A DNA stretch of 64,000 nucleotides from the NCBI GenBank assembly GCA_021791195.1, contig JAJYXB010000019.1, positions 62,001 through 126,000 of the forward strand. Reading direction: 5' to 3'. Position 1 is the first letter of the stretch. Every line of letters starts with the position of its first letter. The position numbers were made by a program, and so were the translations under genes. The notes beneath the pieces were generated by a model. It made no database searches, was not told where the DNA came from, and worked only from the letters and a program-made list of their open reading frames with translations. This stretch comes from Actinomycetes bacterium (GTDB taxonomy: Bacteria > Actinomycetota > Thermoleophilia > BMS3ABIN01). This document shows positions 10,068 through 50,625 of this stretch, piece by piece.

Positions 10068-11178
10068 GGACCCTGATGACGTTGTAGAGCGTGTCGCGTT
10101 CCACGGGGATGCGGCCGGCGCTCCTGATCAGCCCGATGAGCTCGGCGCGCGAGAGCGCCTGCCCGGTCTGGGCGCCGGCGGCATGGGTGATCTTCTCCTC
10201 GACGACGGTGCCGTCGATGTCGTTGACGCCGAAATTGAGTGAGATCTGCGCCACCTTGATGCCGAGCATGATCCAGAAAGCCTTGATATTGGTGAAATTG
10301 TCGAGCATGAGGCGGCCCACCGCCAGCATCTTCAGATCCTCGACGCCGGTGGGGCCAGGCAGCTCCGCGAGGCCGGTGTTGGCGGGATGGAAAGCCAACG
10401 GGATGAAGCTGCCGAAGCCGCCGGTCTCGTCCTGCAGTTCCCGCAGGCGGATGAGATGGTCGATGCGCTCCGCCGGCGTCTCGACATGGCCGTACAGCAT
10501 GGTCGCATTTGATCTGATCCCCGCTTTGTGCGCCGTGCGCATCACCTCCAGCCAGCCGTCGCCGGAAATCTTGCGGCTGCACACCAGCCCGCGCACGCGC
10601 TCGGAGAAGATCTCGGCGCCGCCTCCGGGCAGCGAGCCCAGGCCCGCCTCCTTCAGCTCCAACAGCACCTCTTCGACGCTGCGTTTTGTGCGGCGGGCGA
10701 AGAAAGCGATCTCGCTGGCAGTGAAAGCCTGGATGTGCACGTCGGGGTCCAGCTCGCGCAGTGAGCTGATCATCTCCAGATAATATTCATAGGGCAGCGA
10801 CGGATGTTCGCCGCCGACGATATGCAGCTCGGTGATGCCCTCGGCCAGCGACTCGCGCGCCGCCGCCAGGATCTCATCCATCGTCATCGTATAGGCGCCG
10901 GGAGCCCCTTCCCTGGCGCTGAAGGCGCAGAACTTGCAGCTGTTGCCGCAGACGTTGGTGTGATTGATGTGACGATTATTGATGAAGTAAACGCGGTCGC
11001 CGGCGCTGCGCTGCCGGGCCAGATCGGCCATGGCGCCGATGGCAAGCAGGTCGCTAGACTCGAGCAGCGCCAGGCCATCTTCGAAAGTAAGCCGCTCGCC
11101 GGCCCGCACTTTCTCTTCAAGTGGCTCGAGCGGGGACGTTCCTTTCCTAACGTTCCTAATTTTTGAATTTCCCTGCAT
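10060..11178 (-). CDS. mqnE: Aminofutalosine synthase MqnE, radical SAM
   Basis: This 372-aa radical SAM enzyme has the CGNSCKFCAF cluster motif after HINHTNVC, then IVGGEHPSLPYEYYLEM and SLPGGGAEIFSERVR, typical of MqnE, which joins the MqnA product to SAM-derived adenosyl to give aminofutalosine. The first ~17 residues (from the ATG at 11178) are encoded by a repeat element: the ATG lies in the loop and the following codons in one arm of a perfect inverted repeat (11131-11226). The conserved protein seems to begin near LEPLEEKVRAGERL, so the N-terminus may have been replaced or extended by the insertion. A downstream GTG within EKVRAGE is a possible alternative start. Confidence 0.88.
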   Translation of the reverse strand: MQGNSKIRNVRKGTSPLEPLEEKVRAGERLTFEDGLALLESSDLLAIGAMADLARQRSAGDRVYFINNRHINHTNVCGNSCKFCAFSAREGAPGAYTMTMDEILAAARESLAEGITELHIVGGEHPSLPYEYYLEMISSLRELDPDVHIQAFTASEIAFFARRTKRSVEEVLLELKEAGLGSLPGGGAEIFSERVRGLVCSRKISGDGWLEVMRTAHKAGIRSNATMLYGHVETPAERIDHLIRLRELQDETGGFGSFIPLAFHPANTGLAELPGPTGVEDLKMLAVGRLMLDNFTNIKAFWIMLGIKVAQISLNFGVNDIDGTVVEEKITHAAGAQTGQALSRAELIGLIRSAGRIPVERDTLYNVIRVHD

Positions 11179-11226
11179 AACCTGTCCTTTTCGTAAATTA
11201 GGAACGTTAGGAAAGGAACGTCCCCG
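11131..11226. repeat. Perfect inverted repeat of a dispersed REP-like element
   Basis: The left arm 11131-11162 and the right arm 11195-11226 are exact reverse complements over 32 bp, with a 32-bp spacer. The core GGGGACGTTCCTTTCCTAA recurs in shorter or variant form at 17748, 56608, 57140, 57331 and 62401. Such paired short palindromic units resemble REP elements mobilised by RAYT-type transposases; no such transposase is in this window, so that link is inference. It lies between the M16 peptidase stop and mqnE and contributes the mqnE start codon. Confidence 0.85.
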
Positions 11227-11232
11227 AAAGCG

Positions 11233-12507
11233 CTAGCCTGCCCTGAGCAGCAGCTCCCGGCCGCCGCCGAGCGCGCCCAGCGCCTTTTCGAATACCGCGG
11301 ACTCGGAGCCAATTGCCACCGCGGTCAGATTCTCGGGCCGGTAATACCGCTCCGCCAGCGCCATCACATCCGCCGCCGTGACGCTGTCTATCTTCTCAAT
11401 GATCTCGTCGATGTCAAGAATCTCCGTGCCAGTCACGGTCAGCTTGCCCAGCCGGCTCATGCGGCTGTGGGTGGTTTCCATCCCCAGTACGACCCGGCCC
11501 TTGGCGTTCTCCTTGGCGCGGATGAGCTCGTCCTCGCCGATGGGCTGCTCGCACAGCAGCCTCAGCTGCCCGGCGACGATGCCGGAGACTTCATCGACGC
11601 TGTCGCCGCGACAGCCGAAATATACGCCCACCAGCCCGGTGTCGGAGTAAAGCGTCGAAAAAGAATATACCGAATAGGCCAGGCCGCGCTTCTCCCGCAC
11701 CTCCTGAAACAGGCGCGAGCTGGCGGTGCCGCCCAGGACCGTATCCAGTATCGACAGCGCAAACCGCTCCGGCGCATGCCGCGACATCCCCAGCCCGCCA
11801 AAACAGACATGATACTGCTGCGTCTCCTTGACGTAAAAACTGGCGCCGCTCTGGGCGACAGGCGCCGATGGCGGCTCCATCGACCGGGCCAGTGGCTGCG
11901 AGCCGTTGCCGCCCCGCAGGTGCTTGCCGGACAGTCCGACCAGTTGTGCCTGCTCGACGTTGCCGGCAGCGGCGATCACCATGTTCGGCAGGGTGTAGTG
12001 CCCCTGGTGATAGGCGCTGATCCGCTCCGGCGTCACCGAACTGATGATGGCCGATGTCCCCAGCACGCTCTTGCCCAGCGGGTGCGAGCCGAAGATGGTC
12101 TGCGTCAGGTTGTCCACGATCAGCTCCGAGGGCGAGTCCTCGTACATGGCGATCTCCTCCACCACAACCTCGCGCTCGGGATCGATGTCGGCGAACGCGG
12201 GTTTAAGCACCATGTCGGCGATCACGTCAAAAGCTTCCTCCAGATGCTGGTCGAGGAAACGGGCGTGCACGACGGTGTATTCGCGCGCCGTGGCCGCATT
12301 CAGCTCGCCGCCGAAAGAGTCGAAGATCTGGGCGATCTCGGTGGCGCCGTAGCGGGAGCTGCCCTTGAACAGCAGATGCTCGATGAAGTGACTGATGCCG
12401 CTTTCCTCGGGCTGCTCATAGCGGGACCCGGCTCCGATCCAGAGCCCGAGAGATACGGAGCGGACGGATGGCAGCTTTTCACTGACCACCCGCCCGCCGC
12501 CGGGCAA
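11233..12507 (-). CDS. M16-family zinc metallopeptidase (processing peptidase-like)
   Basis: This protein of about 424 aa has the inverted zinc motif HFIEH near residue 40 within GISHFIEHLLFKG, and a glutamate ~75 residues later in EVVVEEIAMYEDSP, as in insulinase/mitochondrial-processing-peptidase-like enzymes (M16). The second half carries the non-catalytic M16 C domain with FGGLGMSRHAPERF. Only a TTG at 12507 is available, because an in-frame stop lies just upstream and the ATG overlapping the pnp stop is in another frame. It begins about 10 bp after pnp, which is the common pnp-peptidase arrangement in Gram-positive bacteria. Substrate unknown; no signal peptide. Confidence 0.85.
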   Translation of the reverse strand: MPGGGRVVSEKLPSVRSVSLGLWIGAGSRYEQPEESGISHFIEHLLFKGSSRYGATEIAQIFDSFGGELNAATAREYTVVHARFLDQHLEEAFDVIADMVLKPAFADIDPEREVVVEEIAMYEDSPSELIVDNLTQTIFGSHPLGKSVLGTSAIISSVTPERISAYHQGHYTLPNMVIAAAGNVEQAQLVGLSGKHLRGGNGSQPLARSMEPPSAPVAQSGASFYVKETQQYHVCFGGLGMSRHAPERFALSILDTVLGGTASSRLFQEVREKRGLAYSVYSFSTLYSDTGLVGVYFGCRGDSVDEVSGIVAGQLRLLCEQPIGEDELIRAKENAKGRVVLGMETTHSRMSRLGKLTVTGTEILDIDEIIEKIDSVTAADVMALAERYYRPENLTAVAIGSESAVFEKALGALGGGRELLLRAG

Positions 12508-12517
12508 CTGTTCTAGC

Positions 12518-14698
12518 TCATATTTTTGGATTTAGGTCAACCACCTTCAGTCCGATCCGCTGCTTGCCGCGGTCTTCCTTGACCTCCATGACCTTGACCT
12601 CTACCATCTGGCCTCGCCGGACCACATCTTCGACTTTTTCCACCCGCTTGTCTGACAGGTTGGAGATGTGCACCAGGCCGTCGGTGCCCCGCTTCAGCTC
12701 GACGAAGGCGCCGAAATCAGTGGTCTTGACGACCTTGCCGACGAACACATCGCCCACCTCGACGTCCTTGGTCAGCGCGTTGATGCGGGCGATGACGCCC
12801 TCGGCATTGGCGCCGCCGGGGCTGGTGATGTAGACGGTGCCGTCCTCCTCGACGTCGATGTTGACGTCGAACTCCTCGACCAGGCCGCGAATCGTCTCGC
12901 CGCCCTTGCCGATGAGGGCTCCGATCTTGTCGGGATTGATCTGGATGGTGAGGATGCGCGGCGCGTATTCGGACAGCTCGGCGCGCGCCTCAGGCATGAC
13001 CTCGCGCATCTTGCCTAGCACGAACTCGCGGCCGCGGCGTGACTGCCGGAGCACCTCCGCCATGATGTCGGGAGTAATGCCTTCCTTGATCTTCAGGTCC
13101 ATCTGGATGGCGGTGATGCCGTTGGCCGAACCCGCCACCTTGAAATCCATGTCGCCGAGATGGTCCTCGACGCCGGCGATGTCGGTGAGGATGACGTAAT
13201 TGCGGTCGACTTCCTCCGAACCGCACTCCAGGCAACGGCGCAGGAAGACGCCAACGTTGCCGCAGCTCCTGCAGGTACTGTGCACAATCAGGCCACAGGC
13301 GATACCGCCCACCGGCGCCTTGATCTGAACGCCCGCGTCCATCAGCGCCAGGCTCGAGCCGCAGGTGCTGGCCATCGAGGAAGAGCCGTTGCTCTCCATG
13401 ATCTCGCTCACCAGGCGGATGGTGTAGGGGAAGTCCTTCTCGTCCGGGATCATCGGCCGGAGCGCCTTCTCCGCCAGGGCGCCGTGACCGATGTCGCGCC
13501 GCTTGGGACCGCGCATGAAGCCGGTCTCACCCACCGAGAACGGCGGGAAGTTGTAATGGTGGATGTAGCGCTTGCTCTCTTCGAGGCCGAGGCCATCGAT
13601 GCGCTGCTCGTCGCCGACGGCGCCCAGGGTCAGCAGGGTCATCGCCTGCGTCTGCCCCCGGGTGAAAAGAGCCGAGCCGTGCGTGCGCGGCGCCACGCCC
13701 ACCTCGCAGCTGATCTCGCGCACCTCTTCGTTGCCGCGGCCGTCGGGACGCAGCCTGTCCAGCACGATGCTGCGCCGGACCACGTCCTTCTCCACAGCCT
13801 TGACCAGCGCCAGCACCTCGCGGGCGAATTCATCGCTGGATTCCTCGGTGACCAGCTGCTCGCGCACAACAGCGCGCACCTTTTCGATGCGGGCGGTGCG
13901 CTCCAGCTTGTCGGTAATGCGGTTGGCTTCCTCCAGGCCCGCCCGCGCCAGTTGATCGACCTTGGCAGCCAGCTCCCTGTCCGGCTTTGGCTCCTCGAAG
14001 GGCCACTTTTCCTTGCCGGCGGCCTCGCGGAATTCTTCCTGCAGCTGGCAGAGCTGACGGATCGGCTCACGCGCCATCTCCACCGCCTGCATCGCCAGCT
14101 CCTCGCTAACCTCATTGGCGCCGGCCTCCAGCATCAGGATCGAATCCGAAGTGCCAGCGATGATCAGGTCGAGCTCACAGGCGGGATCATGCAACTGCTG
14201 CATTGTCGGGTTGAGGATCAGCTCGCCGCCGATGCTGCCGACGCGGACCGCCGCGATCGGTCCCTGGAACGGGACCTCCGAGATCGTCAGCGCCGCCGAG
14301 GCGCCATTGAGCGCCAGGATGTCGTAGGCATTTTCCTGATCGGTTGACAGGATGGTGGCGATCAGCTGCACTTCGTTGGAAAAGCCCTTGGGGAAGCGCG
14401 GCCGCACCGGCCGGTCGATCAGGCGCGCGGTCAGGATGGCCTTCTCGCTCGGCCGTGCCTCGCGCTTGATGAAACCGCCCGGGATCTTGCCGGCGGCATA
14501 CATTCTTTCCTCGATGTCGACCGTGAGGGGGAAGAAGTCGATCCCTTCCCTGGCCTCGGTGCGGGCGGTGGCGGTGACCAGCACCATCGTGTCGCCCCAG
14601 CGCACCAGGACGGCACCGTTGGCCTGTTTGGCCAGCCGGCCCGTCTCCAGCGATATCGTCTTGCCGCCGATCTCGATACTCTTGTTGATAACAGTCAA
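12518..14698 (-). CDS. pnp: Polyribonucleotide nucleotidyltransferase (PNPase) with a Cys-rich insertion
   Basis: This 726-aa 3'-5' phosphorolytic exoribonuclease has two RNase PH domains, a KH domain (IGALIGKGGETIRGL) and a C-terminal S1 domain (VGDVFVGKVVKTTDFGAFVEL). The TTG at 14698 is chosen because AAGGAG lies 9 nt upstream and INKSIEIGGKTISLETGRLA is the normal family start; the open frame to 14806 is leader. Unusually, the second RNase PH domain has about 23 extra residues with CRSC (476-479) and CLEC (489-492) in a C-x2-C-x9-C-x2-C pattern, inserted between the conserved AGIA-type and LTDI-x-GxEDHLGDMDFKVAG motifs. It follows rpsO, the classic rpsO-pnp order. Confidence 0.95.
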   Translation of the reverse strand: MTVINKSIEIGGKTISLETGRLAKQANGAVLVRWGDTMVLVTATARTEAREGIDFFPLTVDIEERMYAAGKIPGGFIKREARPSEKAILTARLIDRPVRPRFPKGFSNEVQLIATILSTDQENAYDILALNGASAALTISEVPFQGPIAAVRVGSIGGELILNPTMQQLHDPACELDLIIAGTSDSILMLEAGANEVSEELAMQAVEMAREPIRQLCQLQEEFREAAGKEKWPFEEPKPDRELAAKVDQLARAGLEEANRITDKLERTARIEKVRAVVREQLVTEESSDEFAREVLALVKAVEKDVVRRSIVLDRLRPDGRGNEEVREISCEVGVAPRTHGSALFTRGQTQAMTLLTLGAVGDEQRIDGLGLEESKRYIHHYNFPPFSVGETGFMRGPKRRDIGHGALAEKALRPMIPDEKDFPYTIRLVSEIMESNGSSSMASTCGSSLALMDAGVQIKAPVGGIACGLIVHSTCRSCGNVGVFLRRCLECGSEEVDRNYVILTDIAGVEDHLGDMDFKVAGSANGITAIQMDLKIKEGITPDIMAEVLRQSRRGREFVLGKMREVMPEARAELSEYAPRILTIQINPDKIGALIGKGGETIRGLVEEFDVNIDVEEDGTVYITSPGGANAEGVIARINALTKDVEVGDVFVGKVVKTTDFGAFVELKRGTDGLVHISNLSDKRVEKVEDVVRRGQMVEVKVMEVKEDRGKQRIGLKVVDLNPKI

Positions 14699-14865
14699 GT
14701 TATTGTTCTCCTTAGGATCAGGGGCCAGATTGCCCCTCCGATGTAATGTCCGGTAACCGCGGTGCGGTTCCGGCGAGGTTGCCCGCATTGGGGTTTTTTC
14801 CCGCATGGGCGTGATTTAATCATTGTCCGGGTCAAGAACCGGAGCAAACTTCGCGCCGCGCATGC

Positions 14866-14899
14866 AAAAAGGCCACGGGCTGACAACACTCCCGTGGCC
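14866..14899 (-). terminator. Intrinsic terminator between rpsO and pnp
   Basis: On the minus strand a perfect 9-bp stem (GGCCACGGG at 14871-14879 with its complement at 14891-14899, 11-nt loop) is followed by five Ts. It lies about 200 bp after the rpsO stop and 170 bp before the pnp start, so rpsO and pnp are at least partly separate units. The rest of the 14,700-15,096 gap contains no convincing gene; a promoter for pnp is expected in 14,710-14,860 but no clear box was recognised. Confidence 0.8.
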
Positions 14900-15096
14900 C
14901 GCTCTAGGCTCAAGGCTCAGAATCCGTTGTATTCCCTTCATCCGGAGATTTGATGGCTCGGGAAAGCCAGTCCGGTTAATGGGGGAGATTCTGCAGGAAC
15001 AAGACGGATCCTCAGCCTCAGGCCTAGAGTGCTTGGTTCCAGGCACGGCAAGCGTTTCTGCGCCGAAGCGCAAGAAGAAGGTCGAACCGTATCCGC

Positions 15097-15366
15097 TTAC
15101 TTCCTCAGACCCAGCTCCTTGACCAAAGCGCGGTAGCGGGTCACTTCCTTATTCTGCAGATAGGTAAGCAAACGGCGCCTCTTCCCCACCATCTTCAACA
15201 ACCCTCTGCGTGAATGATGATCTTTCTTGTGGGTTTTCAGATGTTCGGTCAGGCCGTTGATGCGCTCCGTCAGCAGTGCGATCTGCACCTCCGGAGAACC
15301 GGTGTCCTTCTCATGGGAGCTGTATTTGCCGATGACCTGTCCCTTGTCTTCCTTGCTCAGTGTCAA
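15097..15366 (-). CDS. rpsO: 30S ribosomal protein S15
   Basis: This 89-aa protein has the S15 signature: [45 protein letters not shown] and a basic C-terminus. It binds 16S rRNA and helps assemble the central domain of the 30S subunit. The TTG at 15366 has a strong AAAAGGAGG 7 nt upstream and gives the universal 89-residue length; the upstream in-frame ATG at 15426 would add 20 unrelated residues. Confidence 0.96.
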
Positions 15367-15768
15367 GCTGTCACCTCCTTTTAAACACTTGACGTGGGGA
15401 AACCAACTTCCGTCAAAGCTTATCATATTTGGCGTTTAAAACGCGAACAGGGCCGCCGTCAGTCCGGCGACTCCTTTCCCTTTATTAACCGTTGAAACTG
15501 CCGATGTTATTTCCACTGCAGCTACCAGGGGATTCAAGATGAGCACGACCATGGCAGACGCGAATGCGACTACCGGCAACCATCTATCATTGCGCCGGAT
15601 CCTGACGGATTTCGGACCGGGCGCGCTGCCGAGCATGACCTCATTCTATCTGATTATTCTGCCGGGCACGAAGCTGCCGGGAGTCCGCCGCGGCACCGGC
15701 CGGCTGGGCCGTCGCGAGCATCGCCTTCCTGTTTGCCCCGGTGCGGCTGCTATCGTTGCGAGGATTCC
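15367..15768. other. Intergenic stretch between rpsO and a divergent kinase
   Basis: This 400-bp stretch must hold the rpsO promoter (TATGAT at about 15,423 on the minus strand is a candidate -10) and that of the kinase. A 66-codon minus-strand frame (15436-15636) with one hydrophobic segment and a 77-codon plus-strand frame (15539-15772) overlap here. Neither has a recognisable family or good ribosome site, and I do not call either as a gene. Confidence 0.4.
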
Positions 15769-17742
15769 GTGAAGCTCTCCTTAAAGCGCAGGAGAAGCAT
15801 CTTCCGCAAAACCGCGGTCGTCTTCGTGATCGTGGCCCTGGTGCCCATCACCATCCTCGGTCTCAGGAGCTACAGTTTATTTGGCAACGACCTGCAGCAG
15901 CTGGTCAACGCCGGCAAGATCTCTTCCCAGCGGCGCGACGACCTGCTGCATCAGACCGAAGTGCATTCGCTGATAGACGCCGGCTATGGCCTGGCCGTGG
16001 CGCTGGCGCTGGGATATTTCTTCGCCGCCAGCGTAGTCGGGCCGATCCGCACTTTGCAGGAAGGCGCCCGTCGCATCGGCGAGGGCGACCTCGATTTCCG
16101 CGTCGAGACCGACAGCGAAGACGAACTCGGGGAGCTGGCGGCGACGATCAACAACATGGCCAACTTGCTACAGGCGCGCGCGGTGGAGGTAAACAAACGC
16201 AACCGCGACCTGCAGGTGCTCTACGAAATCGCCCACGCCATGTCAGAAGCGCGCGATCCGAACCAGCTGCTGGACAAGGCTCTGGACAAGGCCCTGGTTA
16301 TCAACGGTTCGGTGATGGGCTGCGTGCTGCTGATGGGAAAGGGCGGCAAGCTCGAACCCGTCATCTGCCGCGTCAGCAACGGCGGCGATTCCGACGGGGT
16401 CTTCGAGCACGCGGCCGGCATGGCGATGACATCCGGCGAAACGGTAGTCCTGGACTATTCCCAGGAAGGTGACAAGAGCTTTGACTCCGTCGTCTGTGTG
16501 CCGCTGAAGTTCGAAGACAGCCTGCGGGGGGCGCTGTGCCTGACGATCACGCGGCATGAGTTCTCGCCGGAGAAGTTCGAACTGCTATCCGCCATCGGCA
16601 GCGAAGTGGCGGTGGCGATCGAGAACGCGCGCCTGTTCAAGCAGATGGAGACCACCAACAGGGAGCTGGCCGAAGCGACCGCGGAAATCGCCAGCCTCTT
16701 CTCGGAAGCCGAATCGCACAAGAGTTTCGGCACCAGATACCAAAACCAAAATCTGGTCAAGTGCTGGGAAGTCAAACGTTGCCAGTCCAGGGAATGCCCG
16801 GCATACGGCTCCACAAACCTGCGCTGCTGGCAGATAGCCGGTACCCATTGCGACTGCGAGGAGCACGGCCTGTTCGCGCAGAAGCTGGGCCGCTGCGAAA
16901 AGTGCGCGGTATTCATGCGGGCCTGCCCCGACAAGATCACGCTCATGGGTGAGACGTTCAACAATATGATGGCGATGCTGGAGCAGCGCGTTAAGGAACA
17001 GGAAGAGCTGCAGCGGCGCCTGTTCAGTTCATCCAAGCTGGCGGCCGTCGGCGAGCTCGCCGCGGGTGTGGCGCACGAGATCAACAACCCGCTCACCGGC
17101 ATCCTCGGCAGCGCCATGCTACTGAAGTCAATCGATCCCGCGAACGAGGAGCTGCAGAAGCGCCTTTCGGTGATCGAGAGCGAGACGATGCGGGCGCGCG
17201 ATATTGTCCGCGGGCTGCTGGACTTCGCCCGCCAGGGGAACCATATGAAGACAGCGCCGACGTCCATCCGGCAACTGATTGAGAACACGCTCTTCCTCGT
17301 GCGTCACCAGACGGACCTCTCGCGCATCCAGGTGCGCACCCATTTTGCCGCCGGAATACCGGAGCTGGCGGTGGACGCCAACAAGCTAAAACAGGTCTTC
17401 CTCAACATCATTCACAACGCCGTGCAGTCGATGTCCGCGGACGGCGAACTTGACATTACAGCTATTGTGTCAACCATGCGGGGAGGCGGCAAGACGGTGG
17501 AGATCAGATTCAAGGATACCGGCTGCGGCATGGATGACGCGGCGATGGCCCGTATCTTCGACCCGTTCTATACGACCAAGCGCGTGGGCGAGGGCACCGG
17601 CCTGGGCCTGTCGGTCTCACATCGCTTCGTCAGCGAGCATGGCGGTGAGATCAGGGTGGAGTCCGAGCCGGGCGCCGGCTCGACTTTCATCGTGGTGCTG
17701 CCAGTCAACAGCTGTGCGCTCACCGAGCGCCACGTGGCCTGA
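15769..17742 (+). CDS. Membrane sensor histidine kinase with HAMP, GAF and two-CW domains
   Basis: This is a 657-aa kinase. Two membrane helices (about residues 13-32 and 65-85) flank a very short extracytoplasmic loop, followed by HAMP, a GAF-like domain (residues ~140-300), and a Cys-rich block starting at C332 with CWEVKRC, ECPAYG, CWQIAGTHC and CEKCAVFMRACPD, which matches the 'two-CW' metal- or redox-binding domain. The H-box is AGVAHEINNPLTG with His436, followed by an HATPase domain (DTGCGMDD, GTGLGLSV). The GTG at 15769 with GCGAGG upstream starts just before the first helix. No response regulator is adjacent. It stands opposite to, and between, ribF and rpsO. Confidence 0.85.
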   Translation: MKLSLKRRRSIFRKTAVVFVIVALVPITILGLRSYSLFGNDLQQLVNAGKISSQRRDDLLHQTEVHSLIDAGYGLAVALALGYFFAASVVGPIRTLQEGARRIGEGDLDFRVETDSEDELGELAATINNMANLLQARAVEVNKRNRDLQVLYEIAHAMSEARDPNQLLDKALDKALVINGSVMGCVLLMGKGGKLEPVICRVSNGGDSDGVFEHAAGMAMTSGETVVLDYSQEGDKSFDSVVCVPLKFEDSLRGALCLTITRHEFSPEKFELLSAIGSEVAVAIENARLFKQMETTNRELAEATAEIASLFSEAESHKSFGTRYQNQNLVKCWEVKRCQSRECPAYGSTNLRCWQIAGTHCDCEEHGLFAQKLGRCEKCAVFMRACPDKITLMGETFNNMMAMLEQRVKEQEELQRRLFSSSKLAAVGELAAGVAHEINNPLTGILGSAMLLKSIDPANEELQKRLSVIESETMRARDIVRGLLDFARQGNHMKTAPTSIRQLIENTLFLVRHQTDLSRIQVRTHFAAGIPELAVDANKLKQVFLNIIHNAVQSMSADGELDITAIVSTMRGGGKTVEIRFKDTGCGMDDAAMARIFDPFYTTKRVGEGTGLGLSVSHRFVSEHGGEIRVESEPGAGSTFIVVLPVNSCALTERHVA

Positions 17743-38200: not shown

Positions 38201-39681
38201 ATATAAAAACAATCGCCAAATTGCCAAAGCAAGAATTACCGGCGGAATGGCAATGGTCTAAGCTCGGAGATGTTGCTGATATCGTAGCAGGTAATCCAGC
38301 GCCGCAGGGTGAGCAATTTTTTGAGAACGGAACTTATCCATTTGTCCGCGTGCAAGATATGGGCCGCCTTGGAACACAGGTACGCATGACTGATACACAT
38401 GATCGAGTGAATGAGACAGCTATACCAAAGTTGAAGCTGTTTCCGGCCGGGAGCGTTTTATTCACAAAAAGTGGCGCATCAACGCTCCTGAATCAAAGAG
38501 CAATACTCGCGCGTGATATGTACGTTGTGAGCCATATTGCCGCTGCGATTCCAAGCGATACAATTTTGAGCGAATGGCTTTATTATTGGTTGAAAGTCAT
38601 AGACTTTAACCAATTGGCTCACGCAACAACATTGCCATCTCTTCCTCTATCACAAGCCAAAGAAATCCCCGTTCCTATTGCTCCTAAAGAAGTGCAAGCA
38701 AATGTTATCGCCGAAATCGAAATACAATTCTCCCGGCTCGACGAGGCTGTCACCAGCCTAAAGAGAGCCAAAGCCAACCTCAAACGCTACAAAGCCGCCT
38801 TCCTCAAAGCCGCCGTCGAAGGCAAGCTGACGGAAGAGTGGCGCAAACAACACCCCGACGTCGAACCCGCCACCGAACTCCTAAAACGCATCCTCATCGA
38901 ACGCCGCCAAAAATGGGAAGAAGCCGAGCTCGCCAAAATGCGCGCGAAAGGCAAAGAGCCGAAGGATGATAAGTGGAAGGCAAGATATAAAGAGCCAATT
39001 ATCACCGATACGGAACATCTACAAGAACTACCGAGCGAATGGATGTGGGTATCACTTTTAACAGTGGCGGTAAAAATACAAACTGGTCCATTTGGTTCTC
39101 TACTACATAAAGAAGAATATGTCAAACGTGGTGTACCTCTGGTAAATCCTACCCATATTAGTGGCCAGCGTATACTCGCAGATTGGGATCTAACAGTTCT
39201 TCCGAATAAGGCAAACTCCCTAAGTAAATACAGGATGGAGATGGGTGATATCGTAATGGGACGAAGGGGTGAAATGGGGCGTTGTGCATCGGTTTCGGAA
39301 AAACAGGATGGATGGCTTTGCGGAACAGGTAGTCTATTCATCAGGCTTATACCACATATGAACTCTTTGTTTTACAGTCATTTTCTAAGTTCAAAAGTGA
39401 TTCGAGATTACTTGGGTGAAAATAGCATTGGAACAACAATGAGTAACTTAAATCAAAATATTTTGCGCTCACTTCCTATTCCTCTATGTTCAGAAGCTGA
39501 ACAAGACAGAATCATGCAGGATGTCAATTATAAAATATCGATTATTGATAAATTAGAAACTTATACTTCCAGTAACTTGCAAGAAATTGAAATATTACGC
39601 CAATCAATCCTCAATAAAGCCTTTTCGGGCAACCTAAAGAGCAAGTATGAAAAACTCATTACGGGATTGAAGACAAAATGA
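38197..39681 (+). CDS. hsdS: Type I restriction-modification specificity subunit
   Basis: This 494-aa subunit has two target-recognition domains (about residues 15-170 and 285-440), each followed by a helical conserved region (FSRLDEAVTSLKRAKANLKRYKAAFLKAAVEGKL; LQEIEILRQSILNKAFSGNL). The GTG start overlaps the hsdR stop (GTGA). The TRD parts are clearly AT-richer than the neighbours, whereas the central conserved region is GC-rich, the usual pattern when TRDs are exchanged. It reads a bipartite DNA sequence that cannot be predicted here. Confidence 0.93.
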   Translation: MNIKTIAKLPKQELPAEWQWSKLGDVADIVAGNPAPQGEQFFENGTYPFVRVQDMGRLGTQVRMTDTHDRVNETAIPKLKLFPAGSVLFTKSGASTLLNQRAILARDMYVVSHIAAAIPSDTILSEWLYYWLKVIDFNQLAHATTLPSLPLSQAKEIPVPIAPKEVQANVIAEIEIQFSRLDEAVTSLKRAKANLKRYKAAFLKAAVEGKLTEEWRKQHPDVEPATELLKRILIERRQKWEEAELAKMRAKGKEPKDDKWKARYKEPIITDTEHLQELPSEWMWVSLLTVAVKIQTGPFGSLLHKEEYVKRGVPLVNPTHISGQRILADWDLTVLPNKANSLSKYRMEMGDIVMGRRGEMGRCASVSEKQDGWLCGTGSLFIRLIPHMNSLFYSHFLSSKVIRDYLGENSIGTTMSNLNQNILRSLPIPLCSEAEQDRIMQDVNYKISIIDKLETYTSSNLQEIEILRQSILNKAFSGNLKSKYEKLITGLKTK

Positions 39682-40499
39682 CTGATGACATAAATGATAC
39701 TCAGAAGCATCTTGAAAGAGTGAATAGGTCAGGATTTCCGCTTCAGATTGGTCTGGAATATCTGCTTCAAAAAAATCCTGGTCGGCGCCATTGGCATTCA
39801 CTTGTTTCAGAGTATCCATGGAATTACGAAGAATCTAAAACGAATGGTTTTATAGACCTTGTCATCGAGGATATCCACCAAGTGGGAATAATGGTGATCG
39901 AATGTAAAAGAGTTCGTGATACCGAATGGATTTTTTTAATCCCGCCGGGTGAGGAATCCAGAACACATACGAACGCCTGGGTTTCTTGGAAAAAGAGCCC
40001 AGAGGCACGGCGCATATTTGACTGGCACGATATCCAAACTGAACCCAACTCGCCAGAAGCGGCATTCTGTATTGTTGCTGGACAAGATGCAAAAAGTAGA
40101 CCAATGCTTGAAAAAGTAGCATCGCAGCTAATTGATGCCACTGAAGCGTTAGCGAGAGAAGAAATGCAAATATATCAACTCCATGGAAAGGAATTTTGGA
40201 GCGCCAGAACATATTTTCCGACCATAATAACCACTGCAGAGTTAAAAGTTTGCAAATTTGATCTCGCAAAAATCGATATCGATAATGGCGACCTTTTAGA
40301 TGCCGAATTTGTAACAGTTCCTTTCCTTCGTTTTAGAAAAGCATTTTCGATAAGAGCTTCAAAACTTCTATCTGCTGGAAACATAGCGCATGTATCAACA
40401 GCGTCAGAGAGAACAGTTTATGTAGTTAATTCTAGCTCCTTTGAATCATTTTTAAGCCAATGGGATCTGCCAGTAAATTCATTAAATAGTTTAAGATAA
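39678..40499 (+). CDS. PD-(D/E)XK nuclease-like protein embedded in the hsd operon
   Basis: This 273-aa protein has a possible restriction-endonuclease-like core: Glu45 (SEYPW), Asp60 in NGFIDLVIED and Glu75-x-Lys77 in IMVIECKRVRD. The remainder has no recognised domain. It is AT-rich like the hsdS TRDs. The ATG overlaps the hsdS stop by 4 nt, which indicates coordinated expression with the restriction system. It may be an accessory nuclease or a protein of another defence unit; no known family name came to mind. The motif reading is by eye. Confidence 0.65.
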   Translation: MTDDINDTQKHLERVNRSGFPLQIGLEYLLQKNPGRRHWHSLVSEYPWNYEESKTNGFIDLVIEDIHQVGIMVIECKRVRDTEWIFLIPPGEESRTHTNAWVSWKKSPEARRIFDWHDIQTEPNSPEAAFCIVAGQDAKSRPMLEKVASQLIDATEALAREEMQIYQLHGKEFWSARTYFPTIITTAELKVCKFDLAKIDIDNGDLLDAEFVTVPFLRFRKAFSIRASKLLSAGNIAHVSTASERTVYVVNSSSFESFLSQWDLPVNSLNSLR

Positions 40500-40505
40500 G
40501 GGTTC

Positions 40506-40680
40506 AATCACGCCTCAAATCGTCCAAGAACTCTGGATCTACTGCAATGTCCTCCGTGACGACGGGATGAGCTACGGCGATTACGTCGAGCAGCTCACAT
40601 ATCTGCTCTTCCTCAAAGGCGGAAGACCGCATGTGCAGAGCATCGTTACGGCTGGCCAGTCGCCAATTTCTCACGGCTTA
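40506..40680 (+). pseudogene. 5' fragment of an hsdM gene
   Basis: Bases 40519-40617 match the start of the intact hsdM (43153-43251) with 7 differences in 99 bp, and the frame reads IVQELWIYCNVLRDDGMSYGDYVEQLTYLLFLK. Homology ends abruptly and the frame closes about 20 codons on. The ATG is missing. It marks where hsdM would be expected directly after the accessory gene and shows that the AbiE pair was inserted or that two related operons recombined here. Bases 40,681-40,890 are AT-rich with no gene. Confidence 0.85.
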
Positions 40681-40897
40681 AATTAGCCGATGGCATAACT
40701 TTCAATTGGACGATAATGAAACCTTCATTTGGCTGATAGAAAAAATAAACTCTGGGCCACCAGCGGATCTTCCTCAACTACATAATTAGCGTAATAATTC
40801 CGCCAAAATAGGAAAATTTACGCATATAATATAGTTTTCTTTCTAACTTAGTATATAATCTGTGCATTAATTCTTATAAAATATGAAATATGACTCT

Positions 40898-40908: not shown

Positions 40909-41727
40909 ATGAATACACTAGCTGGCCTTGGAAAAACTGATCGCGCCCGCCTGGCGCTGGTTTTGCGTGGCACAAAAGGTACAGTCTCGGTTAGCGAGGC
41001 GGCCGAGCTTTTGGGCGTCCCTGCAAATATTGCGGCCAAGATGCTGTCCCGCTGGGCGCAGGCTGGCTGGTTGTCACGCATTCGCCGTGGTCTGTATGTT
41101 CCTGTTTCCCTAGAATCACGCACGGCGGATATCCCCTTGGAAGATCCGTGGACAGTTGCCGCCCGTCTTTATGAGCCCTGCTATATCGGCGGTTGGAGCG
41201 CGGCCGAGTATTGGGATCTTACCGAGCAAATATTTCGCACTGTTCTGGTTATGACAACCCGGAAACCCCGGCAAAGAAAAACAAAGATTAAGGGAACGGA
41301 CTTTCTCCTGCGAACGGTTTCTGACAAGGCGCTCTTTGGCCTAAAACCTGTCTGGCGAGGGCAAGTCAAAGTTAATCTGTCCGACCCGGCACGTACAATT
41401 ATCGACATGCTTGGTGAGCCCAAACTGGGTGGCGGCATCCGTTCTGTCACAGATATGTTTGTGGCTTATTTGAAATCTGAAAAAAAAGACCTCGACCTGC
41501 TGGTTAATTATGCAGAGCAATCGGGCAACGGCGCTGTTTTCAAAAGAATGGGGTTTCTTCTGGAAGGACTCGGCTGTGGGGATGAAGCAATCATCAACAG
41601 ATGTCAGGAAAAGCTGACGACAGGTTATGCCAAGCTGGATACCAGCCTGCCAGCCGAGAGGCTGGTTACCAGGTGGCGGCTATGGGTTCCGGAGCGGTGG
41701 CTGAAAGAGATTCCGGTTGATAGATAA
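40909..41727 (+). CDS. abiEi: AbiEi-type antitoxin, type IV toxin-antitoxin
   Basis: This 272-aa protein has an N-terminal winged helix (VSVSEAAELLGVPANIAAKMLSRWAQAGWLSRIRRGLYV) and the AbiEi C-terminal domain (YIGGWSAAEYWDLTEQ, VNLSDPARTIIDMLGEP). In AbiE systems this protein represses the operon and neutralises the toxin without direct binding. It overlaps the toxin gene by 11 nt. The adjacent AT-rich leader probably contains its binding sites. Confidence 0.9.
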   Translation: MNTLAGLGKTDRARLALVLRGTKGTVSVSEAAELLGVPANIAAKMLSRWAQAGWLSRIRRGLYVPVSLESRTADIPLEDPWTVAARLYEPCYIGGWSAAEYWDLTEQIFRTVLVMTTRKPRQRKTKIKGTDFLLRTVSDKALFGLKPVWRGQVKVNLSDPARTIIDMLGEPKLGGGIRSVTDMFVAYLKSEKKDLDLLVNYAEQSGNGAVFKRMGFLLEGLGCGDEAIINRCQEKLTTGYAKLDTSLPAERLVTRWRLWVPERWLKEIPVDR

Positions 41728-43135
41728 ACAGGAAGTGCTGGAGTTCGCACGGGAATTTTCACTGGATCCGCACGTTATTGAAAAGGATTACGTTCTGGGC
41801 TGGATCCTTGCGGGTATCGCCAGCCATGATGGGCTCAGATCCACATGGATATTCAAAGGCGGAACCTGTCTTAAGAAATGCTACTTTGAAACCTATCGCT
41901 TCTCGGAAGACCTGGATTTCACGTTAACTGACCCCGCGCATATAAATGCGGAATTCCTTGGTGAGACTTTCCCAACAATCGCTGACTGGGTTTATGATCA
42001 AGCAGGCATTGAAATACCACAAGACACACTTCGCTTCAAGGTCTATAAAAACTCTCATGGCGGCGAATCGGTTGAAGGGCGAATTGGATATCGGGGTCCC
42101 TTGCAGCGACGGGGCGACGCTCCGCGAATCAAACTCGATCTCACTGCAAACGAAATCCTGGTCCTGGAACCATCTGCAAGAGCTGTTCACCACCCATATT
42201 CCGACGGACCCGCCGAAGGGATTAGAATCTCCTGCTACTCATTTGAGGAAGTTTTCGCTGAAAAGGTTCGGGCATTGGCGGAACGAGAACGACCTCGTGA
42301 CCTATATGATGTCGTGCATCTCCATCGCCACGACGAGCTAACACCAGATCGAGAAATTGTCTTTAACACCTTGGAGAAAAAATGCTCTTTTAAAGGAATT
42401 CCCATGCCAACTTTCGCCGCTTTGGAAGCACAGCCAGCGCGAGCCGAACTGGAAGCTGAATGGGAGAATATGCTAGGACATCAATTACCTGCACTTCCCC
42501 CTTTTGAACAATTCTGGAATGAACTGCCGGCAGTTTTTGACTGGTTGCAAGGCGCGGCTGCGAAGGTCGCGAAACTATCTGTAGCGGTAGGCAATAATAT
42601 TGATGAAACGTGGCGGCCTCCTTCAATGGCGCAGGCCTGGCACACCACCGCGCCGCTGGAGATAATTCGTTTTGCGGCAGCCAACCGGCTCTGTGTCACG
42701 TTGGCTTATCAAGGCAGCACCCGTCTGATAGAACCATACTCCCTCAGGCGAACAAGGGCAGGGAATCTTCTCTTATATGCAGTCAAGCACGGAACCGGCG
42801 AGATAAGGGCATACCGAGTCGATCGCATCCATGGCGCCGAAGTATCACAAGAGGCATTTATTCCAAAATACGCTGTTGAGCTTACGCCTGCCGGTTCGAT
42901 GGCGGCTCCGCCCGTGCAAAATCGGCTAACCTTGGGTTTGCCATATCGCTCGCGAGGTACTCGCACCCGGCGCACCGTCAGCAGCGGACCTAGATACGTG
43001 ATTGAATGTCCTTACTGCGGAAAGAAATTCACAAGGAAGAAAAGAGGCACAAGGTTGAACAAACACAATGACCAATACGGCAACAGATGTTCAGGTTCTT
43101 TCCGAACCGGTACATTGGTTGATACCATATACTGA
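41717..43135 (+). CDS. abiEii: AbiEii nucleotidyltransferase toxin fused to WYL and zinc-finger-like domains
   Basis: This 472-aa protein begins at a TTG inside the end of abiEi. Residues 1-~240 are an AbiEii/AbiGii-type nucleotidyltransferase: IFKGGTCLKK (45-54), EDLDFT (64-69), and EKVRALAERERPRDLYDV (182-199). Residues ~312-388 look like a WYL domain (PLEIIRFAAANRLCVTLAYQG, RLIEPYSLRRTRAGNLLL, IRAYRVDRIHGAEV). A C-terminal C-x2-C-x15-H-x7-C set (C431, C434, H450, C458) suggests a zinc finger. Canonical AbiEii lacks the last two. The stop is 2 bp before hsdM, so the pair is joined to the restriction operon. Confidence 0.85.
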   Translation: MIDKQEVLEFAREFSLDPHVIEKDYVLGWILAGIASHDGLRSTWIFKGGTCLKKCYFETYRFSEDLDFTLTDPAHINAEFLGETFPTIADWVYDQAGIEIPQDTLRFKVYKNSHGGESVEGRIGYRGPLQRRGDAPRIKLDLTANEILVLEPSARAVHHPYSDGPAEGIRISCYSFEEVFAEKVRALAERERPRDLYDVVHLHRHDELTPDREIVFNTLEKKCSFKGIPMPTFAALEAQPARAELEAEWENMLGHQLPALPPFEQFWNELPAVFDWLQGAAAKVAKLSVAVGNNIDETWRPPSMAQAWHTTAPLEIIRFAAANRLCVTLAYQGSTRLIEPYSLRRTRAGNLLLYAVKHGTGEIRAYRVDRIHGAEVSQEAFIPKYAVELTPAGSMAAPPVQNRLTLGLPYRSRGTRTRRTVSSGPRYVIECPYCGKKFTRKKRGTRLNKHNDQYGNRCSGSFRTGTLVDTIY

Positions 43136-43137
43136 TT

Positions 43138-44679
43138 ATGAATCCCGCCTCCATCGTCCAAAAACTCTGGAACTACTGTAACGTCCTCCGCGACGACGGC
43201 ATGAGCTACGGCGATTACGTCGAGCAGCTCACCTATCTGCTCTTCCTCAAAATGGCGGACGAGCGCACGCAGAAACCCTATAAACAAAAGAGCATCGTTC
43301 CGGATGAGTACAGTTGGCAGAGTCTCATCAAGCGCGACGGTGACGAGCTTTTCGATCACTACCGCCACATCCTCGAAGCCCTGGGCCGTGAGAAGGGATT
43401 GCTCGGCCTTATCTTTGGCAAGTCCCAGAACAAGTTCCAGGACCCCGCCAAGCTTCGTCGGCTGATCGTCGATCTCATCGACAAGGAGAACTGGTCGCGC
43501 ATGAGCGCGGACGTCAAGGGCGATGCCTACGAGGGGCTCCTCAACAAAAACGCCGTGGAGTCGCCCAAGGGAGCGGGGCAATACTTCACCCCGCGCCCGC
43601 TCATCCGCGCTATCGTCGATGCCGTGGCGCCCCAGCCCGGCGAGCAGATCTGCGACCCGGCCTGCGGTACCGGCGGCTTCCTGCTCGCCGCGCACGACTA
43701 TATCGTCGCCAACAACGAACACCTCACCAGCGCCGAGAAGAAAAAGCTCAAGGAGAACACCTTCAAGGGCTGCGAGCTGGTGCCGGGCGTGGCGCGCCTT
43801 TGCGCCATGAACATGCTCCTGCACGGCATCGGCAGCCCGGAGTATGAGCCGGTCGTGGTGAGCGACTCGCTCGCGGCCGACCCCCAGGAGCGCTTCCAGC
43901 TGGTGCTCACCAATCCGCCTTTCGGCAAGAAAAGCAGCGTCACCATTGTTGGCGAGGACGGCCGGGCCGCGAAAGAGCGCGAGAGTTACGAGCGTGATGA
44001 TTTCTGGACCACGACCTCCAACAAGCAGCTCAACTTTTTGCAGCATGTGAAGACTCTGCTGGCTATCAACGGGCGGGCCGCGGTTGTGGTGCCGGATAAC
44101 GTGCTGTTTGAGGGCGGTGCTGGTGAGACGATCCGGCGGCGCCTGCTGGATGAGTGCGATGTGCATACGCTGCTGCGGTTGCCGACAGGGCTGTTTTATG
44201 CGCAGGGCGTGAAGGCTAATGTCTTGTTCTTTGACAAGAAGCCCGCGAGCGAGGAGCCGTGGACGCGGAAACTGTGGATATATGATCTGCGGACTAACAT
44301 GCACTTTACGCTGAAGACGAATCCGCTCAAGCGGTCTGATCTTGATGATTTTGTGAAGTGCTATAAGACTGATGCTCGGGCGCGGCGCAAGGATACGTGG
44401 TCAGTGGACTTGAAAGAACTTTCACCTGGGCAGACCGAATATAAAGGGCGCTGGCGCGGCTTTTCCTATGACGAGATCGTCGCGCGCGATAAAGCCAGCC
44501 TGGATATCTTCTGGCTGCGGGATGAAAGCCTGGAAGATTCTGATAACTTGCCCGAGCCGGGCGTGATAGCTCAGGAGATTGTGGCTGATCTTGAGGCGGC
44601 GTTAGTGCAGTTTAAGGAGATTGCGATGGATTTGGGGGTTGAAGATATTACGGAAGAACTTGAAAGCGCGTCGGATTAG
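43138..44679 (+). CDS. hsdM: Type I restriction-modification methyltransferase subunit
   Basis: This 513-aa N6-adenine methyltransferase has an HsdM N-terminal helical domain (VQKLWNYCNVLRDDGMSYGDYVEQLTYLLFLKM), the SAM-binding DPACGTGGFLLAAHDY near residue 172 and the catalytic NPPFG near residue 259. Together with HsdS it methylates the host recognition site. The ATG is 2 bp after the abiEii stop. Its N-terminal coding region is duplicated as a fragment at 40519-40617. Confidence 0.95.
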   Translation: MNPASIVQKLWNYCNVLRDDGMSYGDYVEQLTYLLFLKMADERTQKPYKQKSIVPDEYSWQSLIKRDGDELFDHYRHILEALGREKGLLGLIFGKSQNKFQDPAKLRRLIVDLIDKENWSRMSADVKGDAYEGLLNKNAVESPKGAGQYFTPRPLIRAIVDAVAPQPGEQICDPACGTGGFLLAAHDYIVANNEHLTSAEKKKLKENTFKGCELVPGVARLCAMNMLLHGIGSPEYEPVVVSDSLAADPQERFQLVLTNPPFGKKSSVTIVGEDGRAAKERESYERDDFWTTTSNKQLNFLQHVKTLLAINGRAAVVVPDNVLFEGGAGETIRRRLLDECDVHTLLRLPTGLFYAQGVKANVLFFDKKPASEEPWTRKLWIYDLRTNMHFTLKTNPLKRSDLDDFVKCYKTDARARRKDTWSVDLKELSPGQTEYKGRWRGFSYDEIVARDKASLDIFWLRDESLEDSDNLPEPGVIAQEIVADLEAALVQFKEIAMDLGVEDITEELESASD

Positions 44680-44689
44680 ACCGGCCTGT

Positions 44690-45034
44690 TCAAGAGGCAA
44701 TCTTTTCTTTCTGCCGCCGTTTTGGGGCCGCAAGTGTCTTAGCTAGATCCATCCGCGACGCACCAAGCACAAAGAGAGCTCGAACCAAAAGATCGATTGA
44801 AACAGATGGATCCCCCGCCTCCATCTTGGCAACCCGTGACTGGCTGGATTTCAGCATTTTTGCCAGTTTAGCCTGGGTGAAATGCTTTCCCTGCCTCCGC
44901 TCCTTTAAACTCTGAGCAAGCTCGAGTTTCGTGTCAACGTAGGCCATCTCTTCGTCAGAAAGTTCCAGAAAATCCTGGGTGCTGCCAATCTTCCAGCCCT
45001 TCGCTTCCAGTGCTTTCCTTTTGTTCTTATCCAT
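44690..45034 (-). CDS. XRE-family antitoxin (HigA-like)
   Basis: This 114-aa protein has an XRE-type helix-turn-helix (FTQAKLAKMLKSSQSRVAKMEAGDPSVSIDLLVRALFVLGAS). The ATG at 45034 follows the toxin stop by 19 bp; the longer frame to 45100 lies inside the toxin gene. It is the second gene of a toxin-first pair, the HigBA order. It converges with hsdM, 10 bp apart. Confidence 0.85.
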   Translation of the reverse strand: MDKNKRKALEAKGWKIGSTQDFLELSDEEMAYVDTKLELAQSLKERRQGKHFTQAKLAKMLKSSQSRVAKMEAGDPSVSIDLLVRALFVLGASRMDLAKTLAAPKRRQKEKIAS

Positions 45035-45053
45035 TCGGGTTTCAGCCCCTAAC

Positions 45054-45389
45054 TTAAGATAAATGGTCGTATTGCCCAATTCTTTTCTTACAAATATCAA
45101 TAATATTCTTTGGCGTTTGCTGTGTCTTCTTGGAGAATACTTCTAAAATCAGAATTGCATCATTATCGATACGGTAGACGATTCGCCATGTTACATCCTC
45201 ATCATTTATTTTTATCTCATGACACCTTGTGCCAATGTTAGGCATAGGTCTTGACATCGGCAGGGAAAGATTTTTTCCTTTCTGGAGCAGTCTTAGGTAA
45301 TGTCCCGCCTCCACTCTGGCGTCTTGTGAAAATGGCGGAGTCCGGACTTCGCCATGCAACCAGACCAAGGGTTTTTCAACTCCAGTCAC
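45054..45389 (-). CDS. RelE/HigB-type (Gp49-like) toxin
   Basis: This 111-aa protein has the phage-derived Gp49-like/HigB pattern: VWLHGEVRTPPFS, the core IGTRCHEIKINDEDVTWRIVYRIDNDAILILEVFSKKTQQTP, and a basic C-terminal helix. Such toxins are ribosome-dependent mRNA interferases. The GTG at 45389 has no ribosome site. On the minus strand TTGAAA, a 17-bp spacer and TAAAAT end 5 nt before it, suggesting a leaderless transcript. Confidence 0.85.
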   Translation of the reverse strand: MTGVEKPLVWLHGEVRTPPFSQDARVEAGHYLRLLQKGKNLSLPMSRPMPNIGTRCHEIKINDEDVTWRIVYRIDNDAILILEVFSKKTQQTPKNIIDICKKRIGQYDHLS

Positions 45390-49687: not shown

Positions 49688-50155
49688 CTACTGCTTTCGC
49701 TTCAGAATACGGTCGTCGAAATTAAAGGGCAGTGGCCGGCTGGCCCTGACCTTCCTGAAGGCAGCCTGAAGGGGGTTGATGATGAAATTATATTCCCCCG
49801 GCACGATCACTGAAGGCACGCGCAGGATCAGGGTTCTGGCAGACCTGGCCCACTCGCTGCCGATCCGGACTGTTTCAGCCTGGAAAGGCATGGCGTCCCA
49901 ACCGGGTGACAGGGCCGTTCGGGGGAGATTCGTAACCCTTGTATCGTCAGGAACGCTGAAGCTGCGATATTTCAGGTCAGGCGGGGCTAACACCAGCGGC
50001 AAATGGACAAGATACTCCAGCGCGGCCAGTGAGAGACTCTCCGCGGTGTAAATAACGGAGATGCCTTTTTCATTCCAGCGGCCGCCGTTGACGCGCGCGC
50101 CCTCGCCGGTTAAATCCCCGATGTGCCCGGCCTTGGCTATCCGGAAGAATTTCAC
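49688..50155 (-). CDS. RES-domain toxin
   Basis: This 155-aa protein has the RES family pattern: FFRIAKAGHIGDLTGEGARVNGGRWNEKGISVIYTAESLSLAALEYLVHL, with the conserved Arg, Tyr, Glu and Ser spaced as in NAD-degrading RES toxins (Res/MbcT). The GTG at 50155 shares one nucleotide with the antitoxin stop. It should deplete NAD when unneutralised. A 2-gene module with the Xre antitoxin upstream. Confidence 0.92.
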   Translation of the reverse strand: MKFFRIAKAGHIGDLTGEGARVNGGRWNEKGISVIYTAESLSLAALEYLVHLPLVLAPPDLKYRSFSVPDDTRVTNLPRTALSPGWDAMPFQAETVRIGSEWARSARTLILRVPSVIVPGEYNFIINPLQAAFRKVRASRPLPFNFDDRILKRKQ

Positions 50156-50625
50156 TATGCGGGGATGCCGTGAGCAATCCGTCCCAGTTCGTCAACAACC
50201 AGTTCTATGCCAAACCGGGAGCTTAGTAACTCGATTGGCTTTCGGCCTCCGAGCGCAGTGGACGGCATCGACAACCAGGTGAGAAAATTACCGCGATCTG
50301 CAAATACATCTATACCAATTGCCACCACTTCAGCCAACTGCAGCGCCTGCTCACTGACAATCTGATTCATTAATTTCTGCGTTTGATATCGTTGCAGGGT
50401 TCTCTCGGTAATTGGCAATAGTTTTGCCATGTCTCGCCAGGTGAGCGACATACTGGCAGCAAGATGCCGCACAGCGCTCTTTTTGATTCCCTGCCTGCCG
50501 AGCTCAATAAAGTCATTGATGCTCTTTATCTTCCGCCCTAAAACTTCTTCGCCACCAAGTATTTCTTCTACGTGAGCGTAACTCATCTGAATCACACCTT
50601 CCCACCGGCTTACGTCATTTGTCAT
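50155..50625 (-). CDS. Xre/MbcA/ParS-family antitoxin
   Basis: This 156-aa partner of RES toxins has an N-terminal helical Xre-like region (AVRHLAASMSLTWRDMAKLLPITERTLQRYQ) and a C-terminal DUF2384 toxin-binding region (AEVVAIGIDVFADRGNFLTWLSMPSTALGGRKPIELLSSRFGIELVVDELGRIAHGIPA). Antitoxin-first order is usual for RES-Xre. A possible alternative start is the internal ATG in VIQMSYAHVEEILGG, which has a GGTGTG-type site. Confidence 0.92.
   Translation of the reverse strand: MTNDVSRWEGVIQMSYAHVEEILGGEEVLGRKIKSINDFIELGRQGIKKSAVRHLAASMSLTWRDMAKLLPITERTLQRYQTQKLMNQIVSEQALQLAEVVAIGIDVFADRGNFLTWLSMPSTALGGRKPIELLSSRFGIELVVDELGRIAHGIPA

Follow-up and report, generated by a model that had tools for sequence, protein, structure and literature searches.

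The AbiEi/AbiEii pair that lies inside a type I restriction operon in the 64,000-nt stretch of DNA analysed here (the window, part of a draft genome) is probably an autonomous, autorepressed type IV toxin-antitoxin pair, its toxin extended by a WYL domain and a zinc-finger-like tail, that serves as one interchangeable cassette of a defence slot lying between hsdS and hsdM and driven by recombination. The sequences themselves carry the features on which this reading is built, namely a three-domain toxin with intact nucleotidyltransferase (NTase) residues, an hsdM 5'-end fossil upstream of abiEi, the same stub pattern beside other cargo, and stubs arranged in series. The window's hsdR, hsdS and hsdM are all present and intact as judged by their open reading frames and Pfam, and the gene order is hsdR, hsdS, a 273-aa ORF, the hsdM stub, abiEi, abiEii and hsdM, with the defence genes on the same strand as the hsd genes and between them (Table 1). 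GC3 is 0.77 in hsdR and 0.76 in hsdM versus 0.32-0.54 in the 273-aa ORF and abiE. The AT-rich 273-aa ORF, between hsdS and the stub, is itself a possible new nuclease cargo, and among 299 genomes of the class its homologues were found in the window and in one relative (G004) only. Beyond the operon, a HigBA-like pair (44690-45389, - strand; a Gp49-like toxin, 7e-13, and an HTH antitoxin) lies convergent to hsdM and 10 nt past it, and two adjoining ORFs at 49688-50625 (- strand) resemble, by reading alone, a RES-domain toxin and an Xre-type antitoxin.

Table 1 Features of the window's operon and cargo of the hsdS-hsdM slot in related loci
Feature	Position or locus	Strand	Evidence
hsdR, type I restriction subunit, 943 aa	35369..38200	+	EcoEI_R_C 1e-44, ResIII 2.8e-35, HSDR_N 2.8e-8
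hsdS, specificity subunit, 494 aa	38197..39681	+	Methylase_S 1.8e-21, two stretches
273-aa ORF (X), putative earlier slot occupant	39678..40499	+	weak PD-(D/E)XK similarity (PDDEXK_9 0.037, below cut-off)
Fossil stub from the start of hsdM (about codons 1-57), lacking the start codon and with small deletions	40503..40660	+	nucleotide and tblastn matches to own hsdM
Putative distal AbiEi operator, inverted repeat centred about -103/-104 of abiEi	40790..40822	.	position common to G018, G017, L020, L021; repeat itself no stronger than shuffles
Putative proximal AbiEi operator, centred -30	40864..40894	.	perfect or near-perfect in L016, L020, L028, L048; weak in window
abiEi, antitoxin/putative autorepressor, 272 aa	40909..41727	+	AbiEi_4 3.8e-10; PADLOC AbiEi PDLC02271 7e-112
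abiEii, toxin of 472 aa bearing a WYL domain and a zinc-finger tail, starts with TTG	41717..43135	+	AbiEii 1e-40, WYL 2.9e-7; PADLOC PDLC02317 1.8e-188 over residues 1-396
NTase domain, residues 29-268	41801..42520	+	invariant motif residues; fold matches MenT3, MenT4
WYL domain, residues 313-390	42653..42886	+	Pfam; fold matches DriD, PafBC, CapW, BrxR
C2HC zinc-finger-like tail, residues 431-458	43007..43090	+	ligands invariant 29/29; pLDDT 84-94
hsdM, intact methylase subunit, 513 aa	43138..44679	+	N6_Mtase 1.5e-70, HsdM_N 2.2e-14
Slot cargo: retron type II-A (NDT + RT) and OLD nuclease	G016 (window's own family)		
Slot cargo: VapBC-like Phd/PIN	G001 (window's own genus)		
Slot cargo: Septu PtuA	L157		
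Slot cargo: DRT UG19	L156		
Slot cargo: Fic	L154, L243, L252, L256, L261		
Slot cargo: RhuM	L161, L164		
Slot cargo: AAA_14/DUF4143	L160		
Slot cargo: Ppl	L162		
Slot cargo: HEPN and adjoining nucleotidyltransferase-like ORF (HEPN-MNT)	L163		
Slot cargo: Schlafen AlbA_2	L168, L250		
Slot cargo: DarT and macro-domain DarG	L235; relatives in L239, L245, L259		
Slot cargo: DUF6883	L236, L245		

The first-pass annotation had described an AbiEii-like protein of about 470 aa with a WYL domain at about 42,650-42,880 and a C-x2-C-x15-H-x7-C tail at 43,007-43,090, and this description held, the tail falling at exactly these positions. Pfam assigns residues 29-268 to AbiEii (PF08843, 140.6 bits against a curated cut-off of 22.5) and residues 314-376 to WYL (PF13280, 2.9e-7, 30.8 bits against 21.8), and it detects the WYL domain in 32 of 38 AbiEii relatives. 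In the alignment of the 38 sequences, G48, G49, R61, D65, D67, K183, R190, D195 and D198 are invariant; these belong to NTase motifs I-IV, whose roles (GG, R..D.D, K..R, D) we took from PMC3985639. The mean information of the WYL region in this alignment is 2.73 bits, versus 2.77 for the NTase domain and 1.6-1.8 for the linkers. The tail is absent from 9 of the 38 relatives; in the 29 that bear it, no variation is seen at the four ligands, C431, C434, H450 and C458. Zinc-finger families scored below the Pfam cut-off in the window toxin (C2H2/BED type, 15.9 bits against 20.6, E 0.013), and the L256 toxin just reached this cut-off with 20.6 bits.

The AlphaFold2 model of the toxin has a mean pLDDT of 87.6 and three confident domains, with values of 88-96 over the WYL region and 84-94 over the tail, while the linker at residues 391-420 is disordered. 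Foldseek searches against the PDB matched the N-terminal part to MenT3 and MenT4 with E-values of 1e-6 to 5e-8 and, at E 1e-4 to 1e-2, the middle part to DriD, PafBC, CapW and BrxR. A family profile, using sequence only, reaches AbiGII (9hlo) and MenT4 (6y56), and an NCBIfam search assigned no toxin family. The Mycobacterium tuberculosis toxins MenT3/TglT and MenT4 share the NTase fold (E down to 5e-8) at 12-17% identity and, unlike the window toxin, have neither a WYL domain nor a zinc tail. DriD, PafBC, CapW and BrxR share their fold with toxin residues 313-390, and the DriD and CapW structures are bound to ssDNA; these proteins are transcription factors with a C-terminal WYL-extension, whereas the WYL domain of the window sits on a toxin, lacks the extension and leads into a disordered linker and then a zinc finger. 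Because the nearest solved relatives of the WYL fold include ssDNA-bound proteins, ssDNA is the foremost candidate ligand. The WYL domain and the zinc tail may be nucleic-acid-binding extra domains, and we infer a sensor role for this part of the toxin.

Sequence comparison makes the window toxin a member of a widespread AbiEii-WYL-zinc subfamily, an architecture already in databases. The PADLOC AbiEii model PDLC02317 (396 positions) represents the same subfamily and covers residues 1-396 including the WYL domain with 624 bits, but it ends before the zinc tail and describes neither WYL nor zinc finger. Full-length relatives occur in many phyla, among them Thermodesulfobacteriota, Myxococcota, Acidobacteriota, Verrucomicrobiota, Omnitrophota, Pseudomonadota and Actinomycetota, and also on plasmids and, in two cases, on putative viral contigs (IMG/VR; L096 and L097). 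No paper linking AbiEii to a WYL domain was found in the part of the literature open to our searches, in which two papers contain both terms. The AbiEi/AbiEii system of Streptococcus agalactiae (PMC3985639) shares with the window an antitoxin gene that comes first, an overlapping toxin, NTase motifs I-IV, a wHTH antitoxin and, putatively, upstream inverted repeats, but its toxin has about 300 aa, whereas that of the window has 472 aa with WYL and zinc tail and is directly followed by hsdM. In the close relatives G004 and G018 the toxin genes are frameshifted, and internal deletions are found in the hsdM genes of G018 and L103. These broken toxin frames may mean that the cassette is in decay in both genomes; the frameshifts and the G018 hsdM deletion may reflect either decay or assembly error.

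AbiEi adjoins the toxin in nearly all WYL-family loci. In the window the two genes overlap by 11 nt, and the hsdM ATG at 43138 follows the abiEii stop by two bases, in agreement with the earlier statement that the toxin starts inside abiEi and ends 2 bp before hsdM. The sequence upstream of hsdM has no evident ribosome-binding site and, given that the start lies only two bases past the toxin stop, hsdM translation is probably coupled to abiEii, in which case AbiEi would also set the supply of HsdM. AbiEi is reported to repress its own transcription through paired inverted repeats upstream, and AbiEii to cause reversible growth arrest and to have NTase activity (PMC3985639; PMC7319586). In the window, abiEi is preceded by an AT-rich region of its own that holds putative inverted repeats of the AbiEi type. 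The repeat positions, at -30 and about -104, recur in relatives with a mean score of 9.0 versus 8.6 for shuffles; the repeats are near-perfect at L016 and L020 and individually weak in the window, and a promoter and terminator scan gave signals no better than shuffled sequence. Given this AT-rich region and the stub, both missing from the first-pass annotation, abiE is probably not transcribed by simple read-through from hsdS. Of the co-expression proposed there for the restriction system and the toxin, the part concerning the toxin and hsdM is likely.

The stub before abiEi is a recognisable copy of the start of the window's own hsdM. Positions 40519-40617 match hsdM positions 43153-43251 at 93% over 99 nt, a longer match to hsdM nt 4-130 reaches 89% over 128 nt (E 3e-43), and degraded similarity runs on to codon 57 (tblastn, own HsdM codons 6-57). 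Equivalent stubs precede abiEi in G018, where the start codon is retained, in G004 and in L017; the L017 stub is interrupted by stops, and those of G004 and L256 contain frameshifts or inserts. In G004 the stub begins within the stop codon of the 273-aa ORF (TAATG), implying that this ORF once abutted hsdM and that abiE arrived between them. A search through the homologues of the 273-aa ORF in the 299 genomes of the class found no empty hsdR-hsdS-X-hsdM allele. The window stub could in principle have come from other recombination events or have been retained for a role.

We surveyed 80 HsdM-family loci for such stubs by comparing each hsdM, in 80-codon segments, with its own upstream 8 kb at an E-value of 1e-4. 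Codons 1-80 were matched upstream in 24 of the 80 loci, a lower bound set by this threshold; the stubs of L017 and G004 were found by other searches. Codons 81-160 were matched in one locus (L261, the continuation of its stub), codons 401-480 in one (27 nt) and the other three segments in none. An upstream copy of the first segment was found for hsdR in 0 of 57 cases and for hsdS in 1 of 55 (30 nt), and most hsdR and hsdS matches, in which the last query segment ran past the stop codon, were discounted. The loci, mostly from draft or metagenome-assembled genomes, were picked for their resemblance to the HsdM of the window, and the stub frequency therefore holds for that HsdM family only.

Stubs also occur in series, in four places in L239, two in L250 and at least two in L256. 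The clearest serial array is that of L239 (G1308; a 4.6 Mb contig, a near-complete chromosome), where four stub matches lie between DarTG and hsdM. The order in L256 is stub, a 229-aa ORF, abiEi, an abiEii that has both the WYL domain and the zinc tail, another stub, Fic and hsdM, so that a later insertion, that of Fic, separates the AbiE-WYL pair from hsdM. In this locus the stub in the 144-nt region after abiEii, and hsdM itself, carry small inserted repeats (CCTGCCT..GGCGCAGGC) within coding sequence. The DUF6883 cassette has the same stub-to-cassette junction in L239 and L245. The right ends of the stubs are spread over hsdM nt 59 to about 300, those of the window, L154, L160, L239 and L245 falling at nt 125-130. 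Stubs of the L154 or L164 type, with 96-97% identity, count as young. Strict site-specific insertion at hsdM codon 42 was rejected in view of this range and of L154, which resumes hsdM further on; tandem duplication of the whole unit was rejected as well, the repeats spanning the hsdM 5' end only.

The order in the relatives is hsdR-hsdS-cargo-hsdM. An hsdS or hsdR could be recognised upstream in 60 loci; the gap from that gene to hsdM exceeds 500 nt in 48 of them and is 150 nt or less in 10, and the cargo identified by Pfam or PADLOC is diverse (Table 1). DarTG adjoins hsdM in L235 and lies farther upstream, behind later material, in L239 and L245. In L120 (G016; 7850-11905, - strand) the slot holds the type II-A retron (NDT + RT) together with a frameshifted OLD-like nuclease. 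In L195, hsdS lies at -7557 to -6034 of hsdM and two partial copies of the hsdS C-terminus follow downstream, possibly reflecting hsdS shuffling. Defence genes inside type I operons have been reported before, as for DarTG2 of EPEC, embedded between hsdS and hsdR (PMC12255303), and for TgvAB in the VPI-2 operon (PMC11411939). Both resemble the window in this respect, and DarTG itself also takes the hsdS-hsdM slot (L235, L239, L245, L259). The passages available from these two papers make no mention of hsdM 5' stubs, nor did literature searches for hsdM fragments, pseudogenes and duplications bring up the pattern in titles or abstracts, most subscription papers and bioRxiv lying outside their scope.

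The first-pass annotation had proposed a restriction-linked abortive module with its own sensor, firing when the restriction complex fails or is inhibited. As a dedicated module of this kind, AbiEii-WYL would be an evolved partner of the restriction enzyme, and its WYL domain would detect products of cleavage, or restriction that is blocked, and set off the toxin. The toxin is indeed packed against hsdM, its WYL fold matches the ssDNA-bound DriD and CapW, and the AbiE-WYL pair occupies the hsdS-hsdM slot in three groups (window/G004/G018, L017 and L256); this placement is not a one-off. However, when HMMs built from 41 HsdM, 27 HsdS and 24 HsdR sequences were applied to 50 WYL-family AbiEii loci with their flanks (684 kb, the window's own clade excluded from the hit count) and to 43 short-AbiEii loci, a type I subunit was found near AbiEii in 1 of the 50 (L017) versus 2 of the 43 without WYL (L066 and L077), showing no enrichment of the WYL type beside restriction genes. 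Three weaker methylase-like matches, more distant, were seen among the 50 loci. In the other 49, AbiEii-WYL stands without restriction genes, and so AbiEii-WYL proteins elsewhere largely show no link to them. L017 has hsdM 9 bp downstream of AbiE-WYL but neither hsdR nor hsdS nearby, the three closest full-length plasmid relatives have no restriction genes within 8 kb, and unrelated defences fill the slot equally well. In L077 (Hufsiella arboris; 9183-17072, + strand) abiEi and a short abiEii without WYL lie directly before hsdR-hsdM-hsdS. In the larger AbiEii tree the hsdM-linked members require two gains, forced by well-supported branches; the best count in a reduced tree including L256 is three gains, and a single origin with losses is also possible there. 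Judged from these comparisons, the association with restriction belongs to the slot and not to the WYL domain. We consider a restriction partnership highly improbable, and the firing of the toxin upon failed restriction is the least supported step of the proposed function.

The stubs, in turn, might be functional, as a leader, a regulator or a site of recombination that selection maintains before each cargo; this would agree with their recurrence in 24 of the 80 loci and with the long reading-frame stretches that persist in the stubs of G018, L154, L243 and L261. The window stub has lost its start codon, however, those of L017, G004 and L256 are broken as described above, and most cargo-filled slots have no detectable stub, all of which makes such a function distinctly unlikely. 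Another possible account is ordinary accretion of a defence island through illegitimate recombination or the action of a classical mobile element, the bias towards the hsdM 5' end needing no special mechanism. This would fit the known embedding in type I operons, the description of such a site as a possible recombination hotspot in PMC12255303, and the spread of the stub right ends. It sits less well with the fact that every real stub derives from the initial 300 nt of a gene of 1500 nt and with the recurrence of serial stubs, and no integrase or transposase was found in the window or in the inserts inspected; we regard this account as rather doubtful. Recombination at the hsdM 5' end, which we prefer, would yield stubs solely from the hsdM start, serial stubs and cassettes that keep their junctions.

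On the preferred reading, the ancestral operon would have been hsdR-hsdS-X-hsdM, X being the 273-aa ORF, and abiE would have entered at the hsdM 5' end by homologous recombination, which rebuilt a complete hsdM downstream and left the old 5' end stranded upstream. AbiEi would use the paired inverted repeats to repress its own promoter, and hsdM would now be read behind abiEii, probably by translational coupling. A shortage of AbiEi during infection or stress would free AbiEii to modify its target, perhaps tRNA by the precedent of the MenT toxins, and growth would be arrested. The WYL domain and the zinc tail would bind nucleic acid, possibly ssDNA, and thereby tune the activity of the toxin or position it. 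The AbiE pair would work alone, with the restriction enzyme as its address rather than its partner, and short direct repeats would let the cassette exit as a circle and re-enter elsewhere. A more far-reaching form of this idea, which we put forward tentatively as a possibility, is that defence cassettes circulate as a pool and dock at the hsdM 5' end, integron-like but without an integrase. Each cassette would combine cargo with one copy of the opening 60-300 nt of hsdM. Recombination of the stub with hsdM would set the cassette free in circular form, and a single crossover in any related hsdM would reinsert it, rebuild hsdM and leave a stub. Repeated rounds would give hsdR-hsdS-(stub-cargo)n-hsdM, an array preserving earlier defences as fossils, with the AbiE-WYL pair of the window as one such cassette.

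The embedding of defence genes in restriction operons is already known. The hsdM stubs would provide a sequence signature of insertion that marks the borders of cassettes and orders serial insertions, and they point to homologous recombination at hsdM as a route by which defences may be swapped. The interval from stub to hsdM may thus serve as a simple guide to new defence genes. In addition, a toxin carrying an ssDNA-type WYL domain and a zinc finger is a candidate for direct control by a nucleic-acid ligand, instead of control at the promoter.
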